From an uncultured Opitutaceae bacterium (lineage in GTDB: Bacteria; Verrucomicrobiota; Verrucomicrobiia; Opitutales; Opitutaceae), in contig CAITEC010000063.1 in the NCBI GenBank assembly GCA_903891325.1, positions 1 through 64,000 of the forward strand: DNA of 64,000 bases, read 5' to 3'. Both the position numbers and the translations under genes were made by a program. Shown here piece by piece: positions 55,040-60,725 of this stretch (position 1 is the stretch's first letter; each line of letters begins with the position of its first letter). Below the pieces are notes generated by a model. It did not search any database. It was not told the origin of the DNA and was given only the letters and a program-made list of their open reading frames with translations.

Positions 55040-57589
55040 TCAGCGCCACTCGTGGCGCGGGTAGCGGCGCTGGAGCTCGGTCTTCAGCTTCGGGTAGATG
55101 TCCCTCCAGAACGAGGTCAGGTCGTCGGTCACCTGGATCGGCCGCTGGTTGGGCGCGAGGACCTCGATTTTCACCGCCACGCGTCCCCGCCCGAGCGTGA
55201 AGCCGCCGTCCACCCCGAAAAGTTCCTGGATCCGCGCGCTGAGGACCGGCGGCCCCTCCCGGGCGTAGGTCAGCCGCGACTTCCGCCCGTTGCCCATCAC
55301 CAGCCTCTCGGGCAGGCAGGTGTCCAGCGCGGCGAGCTGCTCGGCGGTGAGCCATTCCCGCAGGAAGGGCATGACCTCCTTCTGGCGCACACCGCGCGCG
55401 CCGGTCTCGCCGTGGCAGATCTGCTCGATCAGCATCGCCCGGCCCGCGTCGTCGAGCGGGTTCACCTCAAACTCGGGAAACCACTCGGCCAACCGGTTGA
55501 CGCGCGTGATCCACTGCTCGACGCCCTCGTCCCAGGCATCGATCCTGATCCGGCCCGCCAGGACCTCGCGGGAGAGGAGGGCTGCGGCCGCGTCGAGGGG
55601 AACGTCCTCGCTCGCCCGCGATTCCAGGACCAGGTCGCGGAACCGGCGCTCGCGCCGGGCGACCACGCGCTTGGCCTCCGGGTCGTACGTCACCTCGCGG
55701 GTCTCGCCGTAGTCCCCGGGAAAGAGCTCCTGAAGCCACGAGTCCGAGATCGCGGTCGCCAGGCTGAGGAGGACGCTCACCTCCCCTCCCCGCCCCCCGA
55801 TCTCGCTGATCTCCGCCACGGCCATGAGGGGAGCCTTCTGCATCGCGCTCTCGCGGGCGAGCAGGCCCTTGCGCCCGTGGACGAGCTCGCAGCGAAGGGT
55901 CCCGGAGTCCAGCCGCCGGGCGACCTGGTCGGAAAAGCCCGCCAGGACGCATTTCCTGACGGCATCCGGATCGGCGGGCGGGCCGGACGGCGACGGTGCC
56001 TTCCCCTCCCCGGCGATCTCCAGGAACTGCTCGAAGAGGGGCCCCACCTGGCGCGCGCCCTGCGCGTGGATCCCGAGCCGGCGGCAGGCATCCAGGGCGA
56101 AGCCCTTGGACTGGGCGTAGGTCCAGGCGCGCATCATCAGGAAAAAATCGCTCTCGTGCTCCTCGCCGAGGACTTCCTCGCGGGCCAGTTCCACGTCGCG
56201 GCCCGCGGCGCGCAGGAGAAAGCTCCGGCCCTGGGTGAGGGCGGCCATGAGGGCGACCTGCCTCACGCATCCCCGCTCGCGGGCGGCGAGGAACATCCGG
56301 GCATAGCGCGGATGAACGGGAAAGCGAAGCAGGGCGCGGCCGACCTCGGTGATGCGGGATCCCCGCTCGGTCCGCGCCAGCCCGCCGAGGTCCTCGAGCA
56401 GCCTCTCGGCGCGCTCGAGGGCGCGCGGATCGGGCTTGTCGAGCCAGGGGAACGCGGCGATGTCGCCGATCCCCGCGGCCTTGAGGGTCAGGACGACCTC
56501 GGCCAGGTCGAGCCGTTTCACCTCGGGAAGCTCGCGGAGCGGCCGCCGCTCGTGCTCCCGCTCCGTCCAGAGCCTCAGGCAGACGCCGGGGGCGGTGCGG
56601 CCCGCCCGGCCCGCGCGCTGGTCGGCGCTCGCCGCGGAGATCTTCTCGACGAGCAGGGTGTTGATCCCCCGGTGGGGATCGAAGCGGGCCATCCGCGCAA
56701 GCCCGCTGTCGATCACCGCGGTCACCCCGTCGATCGTCACCGATGTCTCCGCGACATTGGTCGAGACGATGATCTTGCGGGTGGCGCACCGGGCGACCGC
56801 CCGGTCCTGGGCGTCCGGCGGGAGCTCGCCGTGGAGCGGGAGCACGGCAAAATCCCGCAGCGCCCGCGATCCCTGGATCGCCTGGACGGTGCGGCTGATC
56901 TCGTAGGCGCCCGGCATGAACACGAGAAGGTCCCCGGGCGTCTCCCCCGCGACGCGCTCGCAGGCCTGGGCGGCCGCCTCCCAGGGCGGCTCCACCTCGA
57001 AATCGACGGACTTCTGAAGGTAGCTGATGTCGACCGGAAAGGTGCGGCCCTGCGAGGTCAGGACCTGGCAGGGGGCGAGGTACTCCCGCAGGCCGGCGGT
57101 GTCGAGGGTCGCGGACATCACGCCGATCTTCAGGTCGGGCCGCGTGGAGCACTGGATCTGGAGGGCGCGGGCCAGCGAGATGTCGCCGTAGAGGTGGCGC
57201 TCGTGGAATTCGTCGAAAAGGACGGCCTTCACGCCGCGCAGGTTGGGGTCGAACGACATCTGCCGCAGGAGGATTCCCTCCGTCACGAAGCGGATCCGGG
57301 TCCGCTCGCTCACGCGCGACTCGAGCCGTATCTGGTAGCCGACCGTATCGCCCAGCGGCGTGCCCCACTCCTCCGCAACGCGCTTCGCCAGGAGGCGCGC
57401 AGCCAGCCGCCGGGGCTGGAGGACGACCACCTCGCCCTTTTCGCCAAGGAGCCCGTGCCGCAGGAGCATCTGCGGGATCTGCGTCGATTTCCCCGAGCCG
57501 GTGGGCGCCTGCACGATCACCCGGCCGGTGCCGCCCAGCGCCGCCACGATGGCGGTTTCCAGTTCGAAGATGGGGAGCTGCGGTTCCAT
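55040..57589 (-). CDS. hrpB: ATP-dependent helicase HrpB
   Basis: DEAH-box RNA helicase family of uncertain physiological substrate. 849 aa from the ATG at MEPQLPIFELETAIVAAL. Motifs: VIVQAPTGSGKSTQIPQML (Walker A), VVVLQPRRLAARLLAKRV (Ia), VLFDEFHERHLYGD (DEFH in place of DEAH, as usual in HrpB), GVMSATLD (III), IIVSTNVAETSVTIDGVT and QRAGRAGRTAPGVCLRLW (VI). The HrpB C-terminal domain is present. The frame stays open 23 codons upstream, but those lie in the region with DnaA boxes. Confidence 0.93.
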   Translation of the reverse strand: MEPQLPIFELETAIVAALGGTGRVIVQAPTGSGKSTQIPQMLLRHGLLGEKGEVVVLQPRRLAARLLAKRVAEEWGTPLGDTVGYQIRLESRVSERTRIRFVTEGILLRQMSFDPNLRGVKAVLFDEFHERHLYGDISLARALQIQCSTRPDLKIGVMSATLDTAGLREYLAPCQVLTSQGRTFPVDISYLQKSVDFEVEPPWEAAAQACERVAGETPGDLLVFMPGAYEISRTVQAIQGSRALRDFAVLPLHGELPPDAQDRAVARCATRKIIVSTNVAETSVTIDGVTAVIDSGLARMARFDPHRGINTLLVEKISAASADQRAGRAGRTAPGVCLRLWTEREHERRPLRELPEVKRLDLAEVVLTLKAAGIGDIAAFPWLDKPDPRALERAERLLEDLGGLARTERGSRITEVGRALLRFPVHPRYARMFLAARERGCVRQVALMAALTQGRSFLLRAAGRDVELAREEVLGEEHESDFFLMMRAWTYAQSKGFALDACRRLGIHAQGARQVGPLFEQFLEIAGEGKAPSPSGPPADPDAVRKCVLAGFSDQVARRLDSGTLRCELVHGRKGLLARESAMQKAPLMAVAEISEIGGRGGEVSVLLSLATAISDSWLQELFPGDYGETREVTYDPEAKRVVARRERRFRDLVLESRASEDVPLDAAAALLSREVLAGRIRIDAWDEGVEQWITRVNRLAEWFPEFEVNPLDDAGRAMLIEQICHGETGARGVRQKEVMPFLREWLTAEQLAALDTCLPERLVMGNGRKSRLTYAREGPPVLSARIQELFGVDGGFTLGRGRVAVKIEVLAPNQRPIQVTDDLTSFWRDIYPKLKTELQRRYPRHEWR

Positions 57590-57650
57590 GGCTCGGGTCG
57601 GTGGCTTGGTAATAAAAAGAGAATAACCCGGCGCGATCCCAATTCCCAAG

Positions 57651-57687
57651 TTATTCACAGGGTCGGCGGTGAGAAAAATGTGGATAA
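57651..57687. promoter_or_regulatory. two perfect DnaA boxes, facing each other
   Basis: TTATTCACA (57651-57659) and TGTGGATAA (57679-57687, the reverse of TTATCCACA) both match the DnaA consensus TTATNCACA exactly, with 19 bp between them. An AT-rich stretch (TAATAAAAAGAGAATAA, 57610-57626) lies just to the left, unusual here. This could be part of a replication origin, a DnaA-titrating site, or a DnaA-regulated promoter of hrpB or of the RNA region to the right. Confidence 0.6.
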
Positions 57688-57888
57688 CAAACGCTTCACT
57701 TTCGGGCGGGCGGGGGCACCTTCGGCTCGTTCATTGATAGAACAGTCGAGGCGCGGCGGTCTGAAAACTCCGCCGAGAGCACGACTGGGATAATCCCGGG
57801 CGACCGGGGAAAGGACGGTGGCAGCTGGTGCCGCCATCCCCTCCTGTTCCGCGCAAGCGGGATACGGCAGGCACAATCACCAGTTCCT

Positions 57889-58701
57889 CTGGCCGGTGTC
57901 ATGACCGGTCAGTCACATGACAAAGGAGCTGAGCGGCTAGGGGCGATCAGAAACCGCCCTCGAGCCGAGTCAGGCGGACGGAACGTTTCGATCCGGCCGC
58001 CGACGCAGTTACCCAGAGGGTTTCGGCTGCTACTGCGCAGACCAGAACGCAGTCGCGTTTCCCGGCGGGACGACCCCGCCAAAAGGCCCCGTGCGGAAAA
58101 AACGGACGGGGCGCGTAAGGGAGGCGCGGCGGCGCGGAGAGAGCGGGCCAGGCAAAGCCCGTCAAACCTCCTCATTGGGCGGTCCCGCCAAGCGGGCTCA
58201 CCCAACTGCAAAGCGAACGCAGCCTGAGAGTTAAGAGGTCAGACCCGTAACACGGGGCAAACGGCCGGCCAAAAGCCGGCGCCGTCCCCGTGGCAACGGT
58301 GCCGACGCGAAGAACACACTTGTAGGCGTGTCTGCACCACGTCCGGCGTGCCGTCCCCGGCAGGGGGCGACCGAACCGGGCGAAGAGGCCTCACTCAACA
58401 AACTCCAGCCAGAAATGGTCGGAGCGATCCCGCCATGAGATCGAGAACTTCGCATGCCGCGAAGAGTGGCGTCGGGGAACACACGGCCCGCGAAAGCGAG
58501 AGCGCCAAACGTGTGTGCCGGGAAAGAGCGAGTGGCGACCGCCCACCCCCATTTTTAGCCCCGGGACCTTACGGTTCCGGGGCTAAATTATGTATGGGCC
58601 TCGCGATGCGAGCCCATACACCCGCCGTAGTCCGCAAGCGCGGACGAAGGAGGGTCTTACCCCCAGTCAGCGGCGGATCGCATAGGTCCCATAGGACCTA
58701 T
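57889..58701 (+). ncRNA. candidate large structured RNA (about 800 nt), family unknown
   Basis: No protein gene is supported here; the short frames present are low-complexity. The interval has many stems: 57935-57945 with 57955-57966, 57973-57982 with 57992-58001, GCCCCGT/ACGGGGC (58086/58106), GCCGGC/GCCGGC (58264/58275), CTTCGC/GCGAAG (58448/58459), CGC-GAAA-GCG (58489), an 11-bp stem TTTAGCCCCGG/CCGGGGCTAAA (58554/58577), TGTATGGG+CTCGC/GCGAG+CCCATACA (58591-58620), GTCCGC/GCGGAC (58630/58640) inside CCGCCG/CGGCGG (58622/58671), and ATAGGTCC/GGACCTAT (58682/58694). The GNRA loop and A-rich unpaired stretches favour the plus strand. I see none of the conserved motifs of RNase P RNA, tmRNA, SRP or 6S RNA. 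Ends are approximate; a hairpin CTGGCCGGT/ACCGGTCAG marks the left side. Confidence 0.7.
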
Positions 58702-58794
58702 AGCCTGTTGCCTGGGCCTGTTTGCCAATCCAGTGGGTGATTCCGCGTCTGTCGGTGCCAATCGGACTATTCGCGGTCGGGCCCGCCCGTCTGC

Positions 58795-58812
58795 GTGCCC
58801 CTTTTGGGGCAC
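58795..58812 (+). promoter_or_regulatory. hairpin in the typA leader
   Basis: GTGCCCC-TTTT-GGGGCAC is a perfect 7-bp stem with a four-T loop, about 90 bp before the typA ATG. It lacks a following T run, so it is more likely a leader structure (possibly cold-responsive, as typA often is) than a terminator. The region 58702-58904 otherwise holds only the typA leader. Confidence 0.4.
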
Positions 58813-58904
58813 TCCGCCGGGCATTTGGGCTTTGCGTCTGTTCTGCTTGCTTACGGTTCGTGGTCGGTTCACGATGGGCATCTTTTTCAAAACTTTTGGC
58901 CCAA

Positions 58905-60725
<1,821 letters not shown>

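Follow-up and report, generated by a model that had tools for sequence, protein, structure and literature searches.

A full-length MISL RNA gene with conserved candidate control sites between hrpB and typA of an uncultured Opitutaceae bacterium

Results and Discussion

The gap between hrpB and typA in the window, which is the whole 64-kb stretch of DNA that was analysed, holds what is almost certainly a full-length copy of MISL, a catalogued large bacterial RNA (Rfam RF03079). The region is probably the gene of this RNA and a transcription unit of its own, whose product would act in trans and whose synthesis would be tied to DnaA and carry a boxA-like signal. Very probably, the anatomy of MISL genes comprises conserved control sites, a longer start than that of the Rfam model, the core and an end signal. 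MISL itself is already catalogued, and the find is an ordinary one that usefully extends a poorly understood family. New here are the covarying 5' domain, four predicted pairings of pseudoknot type, the terminator hairpin, the GTTCnTTGAnAGAAC element, the DnaA-box-like sites and the joins of MISL to RNA-phage sequences.

Identity and limits of the RNA

The range 57400-59100 was searched by cmscan against 4227 Rfam families, a scan that an earlier note on this DNA had proposed. MISL was the sole family above its gathering score (274.6), with a match over the full length of the model (Table 1; E = 1.2e-155). The RNA that the earlier note had called unidentified is thus a known family, and the note's description of a large, ornate structured RNA is borne out. 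It had also correctly seen that the gap lacks a protein gene: the six ORFs of the gap had no Pfam match at E <= 0.1, and hrpB and typA were clear. The absence of RNase P RNA, tmRNA, SRP RNA and 6S RNA agrees with the scan. The limits proposed before, 57889-58701, need correction. The Rfam match spans 57788-58543 and the conserved signals of the transcript run from about 57729 to 58587, so the former interval is about 100-160 nt short at the 5' side and, past the RNA, takes in hairpins unrelated to it as well as a REP-like repeat.

The predicted fold of positions 57729-58590 has an energy of -434 kcal/mol, and 20 shuffles had a mean of -361.9 (sd 6.56; z = -11). The strand is strongly structured, and the Rfam pairing is kept among relatives (see below). 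High G+C and many stems would also be found in a HEARO or omega-RNA, in a degenerate ribozyme or intron, both of which had been suggested for this region, or in an RNA without a kept function. HEARO and omega-RNA gave no match up to E = 5 in the range scanned, all families other than MISL stayed below the gathering score, and the RNA is conserved, covarying and full length in most copies found, in many genomes. The MISL copy is therefore not a decayed element, and these readings have next to no probability.

Table 1. Features of the MISL locus and its neighbours (positions in the window; "cells" are base pairs counted over the aligned sequences, "slid" is the pairing of displaced control helices)
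Feature	Positions	Strand	Evidence
hrpB, divergent upstream neighbour	55043..57589	-	Pfam HrpB_C 5.5e-36
DnaA-box-like site TTATTCACA	57651..57659	+	TTWTNCACA match; TTWTNCAC site in this region at 115/139 loci
DnaA-box-like site TTATCCACA, inverted, 19 bases from the first	57679..57687	-	TTWTNCACA match; conserved in many relatives
Promoter region, placed by position only	57688..57728	+	TTGAC- and TA---T hexamers at this place in distant relatives
Conserved element GTTCATTGATAGAAC, boxA-like, at or near the RNA start	57729..57743	+	at least 13/15 matches in 126/130 loci
5' leader domain, stem 57743-57748/57782-57787 and inner hairpin	57743..57787	+	missing from the Rfam model
MISL RNA core, RF03079 model 1-751	57788..58543	+	cmscan 511 bits
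Predicted pseudoknot 1, 57899-57903/57916-57920	57899..57920	+	596/608 cells paired; 82 double-change cells; slid at most 48%
Predicted pseudoknot 2, 58025-58030/58219-58224	58025..58224	+	726/738 cells paired; double changes in 6/6 pairs; slid at most 49%
Extra closing helix, 58056-58063/58119-58126	58056..58126	+	791/976 cells paired (81%); double changes in 8/8 pairs; slid at most 51%
Predicted pseudoknot 3, 58206-58211/58320-58325	58206..58325	+	711/734 cells paired; double changes in 4/6 pairs; slid at most 47%
Predicted pseudoknot 4, 58431-58434/58468-58471	58431..58471	+	492/492 cells paired; 37 double-change cells; slid up to 75%
Terminator hairpin	58554..58587	+	89% paired; double changes in 13/13 pairs; T-run decayed here (TTATG)
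typA (bipA), downstream neighbour	58905..60725	+	Pfam GTP_EFTU 9e-59, BipA_C 2.8e-42

Structure of the core and end of the transcript

The family search gave 141 rows, of which 119 were analysed and 22 were unused (contig ends, partial, or not fetched); with 11 from the searches of relatives and of the phylum, 130 loci were available. After the exclusion of six truncated or aberrant loci and one with an N, the alignment comprised 123 sequences. The covariation test on these, which had also been proposed earlier, found double changes in 151 of the 174 Rfam pairs. Across the alignment, 89% of cells retain the Rfam pairing of the window copy, against 36-41% for the slid pairings that served as control, in statistics that ignore the relatedness of the sequences. 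Among the 100 best covarying column pairs, 49 are Rfam pairs of the window copy, and further ones mark pseudoknots 1-4 and the closing helix.

These four pairings of pseudoknot type, added to MISL here, are predictions from covariation, and the fourth is weaker, being supported by a single varying pair, in which 36 of its 37 double-change cells fall. Another helix, 58046-58053/58129-58136, was left out at 66% paired. The helices of RF03079 are the same as those found here; the model differs from the gene and its relatives in lacking the 5' element, the 5' domain and the 3' terminator. The pseudoknots are absent from its covariance model, and the original description of the family may have drawn some of them. 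The Ribonanza study chemically mapped a stretch of a MISL RNA (PMC10925082). The likely gene ends, pseudoknots and control sites would allow better constructs for structural work on MISL.

At the 3' end, the terminator hairpin is followed by TTTT in 106 of 127 loci of relatives, and this run is absent in the window copy. A terminator scan of the window alone was not significant (1 found, 2.0 expected). Beyond the terminator stand two strong hairpins (58592-58619 and about 58681-58703) that were not seen in the relatives compared; 21 bases of the second are found again at one other place in the genome. A REP-like repeat, CGCCGTAG...GAAGGAGGG, occupies 58623-58654 between MISL and typA, and four other partial copies (81-89%) are present in the genome. 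These hairpins and the repeat lie beyond the MISL RNA.

The 5' domain and the boxA-like element

The outer stem of the leader domain is paired in 687 of 734 cells (94%), with double changes in five of six pairs and at most 41% pairing when slid; the inner hairpin is paired in 72% and its register is less sure. In front of it, mostly 59-61 nt before the Rfam start, the GTTCnTTGAnAGAAC element is near-invariant, with 13-15 of its 15 positions kept in almost all loci. The reversed motif reached at most 12 of 15. No segment further upstream scored above 11 apart from that of G039, in which the element itself sits. All of 14 further loci carry the element by eye, 11 of them in full.

The leader of the rRNA operon in the own genome has GGCTCTTTGAAATTTAC, and its boxA, TCTTTGAAA, shares the core with the MISL element; rRNA leaders of three more family genomes, and of G014, have TCTTTGAAATTTAC. 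The pattern TCnTTGAnA is common to the MISL element and to the rRNA leaders of the own genome and the three other family genomes; two rRNA leaders of G559 lacked such a core with the pattern used. A word of the GTTCTTTGA type near the start of a long untranslated transcript is also what links MISL to the boxA leaders of rRNA operons and CRISPR arrays, as described in passages of PMC7862264. There the boxA of CRISPR arrays is given as GTTCTTTAAAA, and it improves the expression of distal spacers. The MISL word differs in varying at the third core base and in having a dyad, the arms of which are lacking in the boxA of the rRNA of the own genome.

Whether the element may be a boxA antitermination signal is close to evenly balanced. 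It might instead be a protective hairpin at the 5' terminus or a promoter-proximal DNA operator, a reading with slightly less than an even chance. The GTTC/GAAC arms are paired in 96% of cells, and in several relatives the element starts about 7 nt after a -10-like hexamer, both in favour of this reading. On the other hand, the arms have almost no compensatory change (three double-change cells); in some distant families they are broken and TCTTTGA is kept (by eye); and some relatives have a hairpin before the element, which therefore does not always stand at the start. A LexA-type operator was also considered for the element; the four-base spacing ascribed to such operators does not fit the seven bases found here.

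A small extra hairpin between promoter and GTTCnTTGAnAGAAC element was seen by eye at five loci (L078, L079, L080, L173 and L228). The layout of a hairpin followed by boxA occurs in rRNA leaders, and the extra hairpin is alike in this. At one locus (L022) the usual 5' start of MISL and the element are missing upstream of the match by eye; the DNA there looks like part of a gene coding for a sigma factor, through insertion or misassembly.

DnaA-box-like sites and promoter

The two upstream sites are the only matches to TTWTNCACA in the window, where 0.51 would be expected; 10 of 100 shuffles had at least two anywhere. The DnaA-box consensus was scored on eight fixed positions in the 139 loci with enough upstream sequence. 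Upstream of MISL it was perfect in 37 and matched at seven or more positions in 124; the controls gave 0 and 3 further upstream (n = 139) and 0 and 8 inside MISL (n = 141). The best of 119 other permutations of the motif had 16 perfect and 106 at seven or more, and the 7-of-8 count is therefore less specific than the perfect count. The 8-base word occurs at least twice in 70 of the 139 loci, and in none of the 139 inside MISL. One complete genome lacks a perfect DnaA box near MISL. Altogether, conserved DnaA-box-like sites adjoin the promoter region in most MISL loci, also in those with differing neighbours.

A promoter under the control of DnaA itself is a general type at dnaA. In eight of 11 genomes TTATTCACA is found about 60-65 nt upstream of the dnaA match (one of the remaining contigs begins at dnaA), as expected of a real DnaA box, and the site before MISL is similar. 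The MISL case differs from the dnaA promoter in lying away from the inferred origin and in that the action of DnaA there is putative. An oriC at MISL was rejected on its distances from dnaA, which range from 76 kb to 2.5 Mb over ten genomes with one or two contigs each (taken as circular), and on that from the switch in GC skew in G148. There the skew switch taken as origin falls at about 3.8-4.3 Mb (twenty 20-kb samples), MISL at 2.45 Mb and dnaA at 2.29 Mb, likewise away from the switch.

DnaA control of MISL, suggested by the nature and position of these sites, is a serious candidate that we place a little below an even chance. A comparable probability is given to the sites serving another regulator, or hrpB. 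Many of the Opitutaceae sites read TTATTCACC and form an inverted repeat with GGTGAA, an arrangement that would also suit a different dimeric regulator; the sites stand there between divergent genes; and 24 of the 139 loci have no match to the 8-base word. Against this, similar sites precede MISL copies with other neighbours, TTATTCACA precedes dnaA as noted, and the three genomes that have hrpB next to typA and no MISL lack the sites. Of ten genomes without MISL, nine have no DnaA-like site in the 1.5 kb upstream of typA, and G149 has one. DnaA control, if true, would tie an ornate RNA to the replication cycle, which is testable in a cultured relative, and the conserved sites offer a first handle on the timing of MISL synthesis.

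The promoter of the window copy has a hexamer score of 6 of 12, no better than shuffles, and a promoter scan found none there. In the family as a whole the mean is 6.3, against 5.7 for shuffles, with 14 of 115 loci at 8 or more; the hexamers are clearer in other families (7.5 against 6.2; 15 of 24 at 8 or more).

Distribution and genomic neighbourhood

The genome of the window has one MISL copy. Under strict filters, with which weak matches are lost, and with the own genome counted, MISL was found in 26 of 57 relatives; in 130 of 252 Opitutaceae genomes, 127 of them above the cut-off; and in 31 of 387 genomes of a phylum sample (21 in the family, six in the order, two in the class and two elsewhere). 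None of 14 control genomes had a match. Among family genomes with a completeness of 90% or more and a contamination of 5% or less, 94 of 165 carry MISL, and it is dispensable, since the other 71 have no match. A motif scan of named genomes gave at least 119 stretches with the search motif; the matches listed are all of Verrucomicrobiota groups by title, except one of Proteobacteria (L275). Rfam searches of 17 of these loci placed MISL above the cut-off in 16, with up to 603 bits; L233 has the search motif and no Rfam match above the cut-off. Of the 16, 14 were used, leaving out L213 (too little upstream sequence) and L178 (truncated).

Six aligned genomes carry two copies, 67-78% identical to each other; the nearest relative is at 87-95% for one copy and 77-81% for the other. 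In one genome with two diverged copies (L083 and L084), one adjoins typA and one a signal-peptidase gene.

At 22 of 27 loci, hrpB or typA lies no more than about 1.5 kb from MISL (both in 13, hrpB only in seven, typA only in two). Outside the family the neighbours vary and include Mur ligase, PfkB, CobW, fasciclin and PALP enzymes; PALP enzyme genes stand beside three copies, and several copies have no Pfam match beside them. A fixed partner gene was sought and none was found among the loci examined. The GTTCnTTGAnAGAAC element is likewise missing from the 1.5 kb upstream of typA in all ten genomes without MISL. In three of them hrpB adjoins typA, with gaps of about 140, 170 and 1100 nt; cmscan found no RNA family in the longest.

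Proposed role and known large RNAs

We propose that the transcription unit would run in the order DnaA-box-like sites, promoter, GTTCnTTGAnAGAAC element at or near the RNA start, 5' domain, core and terminator. The core would fold with several pseudoknots, the intrinsic terminator would end the transcript, and the boxA-like signal would keep the polymerase going over the long untranslated RNA. DnaA would most likely couple its synthesis to growth or the cell cycle. The RNA may act in trans as a stable machine or scaffold, as a self-oligomer or with proteins. Taken as a whole, the idea of a large RNA machine with synthesis set by DnaA and rRNA-type antitermination, that is, of a growth- or cell-cycle-linked structural RNA of Verrucomicrobiota, is speculative and rather unlikely to hold in full. 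No function of MISL was found in the literature searched, which took in few subscription papers.

OLE, ROOL and GOLLD are likewise large, elaborate bacterial RNAs, and by analogy with them, as treated in parts of PMC12286853, oligomers are possible for MISL. They belong to other Rfam families, MISL was the only family that matched here, MISL is chromosomal, and an oligomer of it is hypothetical.

MISL sequences in RNA-phage contigs

A viral collection scanned with MISL motifs gave four contigs (L291, L292, L293 and L294), with MISL pieces at 254, 543, 210 and 66 bits, of which only that of L292 is above the cut-off. The first three have 5' pieces of MISL in sense at the 5' side of the contig, with phage genes behind: a maturation protein (7e-28) and a weak coat match below the cut-off in L291; an RNA replicase gene (3e-42) and a weak maturation protein match below the cut-off in L292; and an RNA replicase gene (1.5e-86) and a maturation protein (1.4e-20) in L293. 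The contig of L294, 15 kb long and bearing a DUF3383 gene, need not derive from RNA. To our knowledge, single-stranded-RNA phages have no DNA stage, and the contigs L291-L293, MISL included, therefore come from RNA. These sequences indicate that the MISL of relatives exists as RNA in nature, a statement that covers the relatives and not the window copy.

The simplest reading of the joins is that they are chimeras among abundant RNAs, MISL presumably being one. Recombination could also have placed MISL truly in these phages, as the sense pieces 5' of maturation or replicase genes, or both, in three contigs would suggest; MISL is broken at a different point in each of them, and this reading is very improbable. 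As a control, 28 stretches were found with an RNase P motif; in one of the five looked at (L314), RNase P RNA is fused to a gene for the Gp23 capsid protein, a similar join that template switching between RNAs, or their misassembly, would be expected to give. The idea that MISL is a phage gene was rejected, four scans of the collection having given four contigs and the 3'-end motif none.

Two further contigs are of minor note. L293 starts just after the expected place of the element (L293:1-46), perhaps at a processed 5' end of MISL, a single case. L298, a 7.1-kb contig of the viral collection, carries a gene for RNase P RNA and a long series of tRNA genes.
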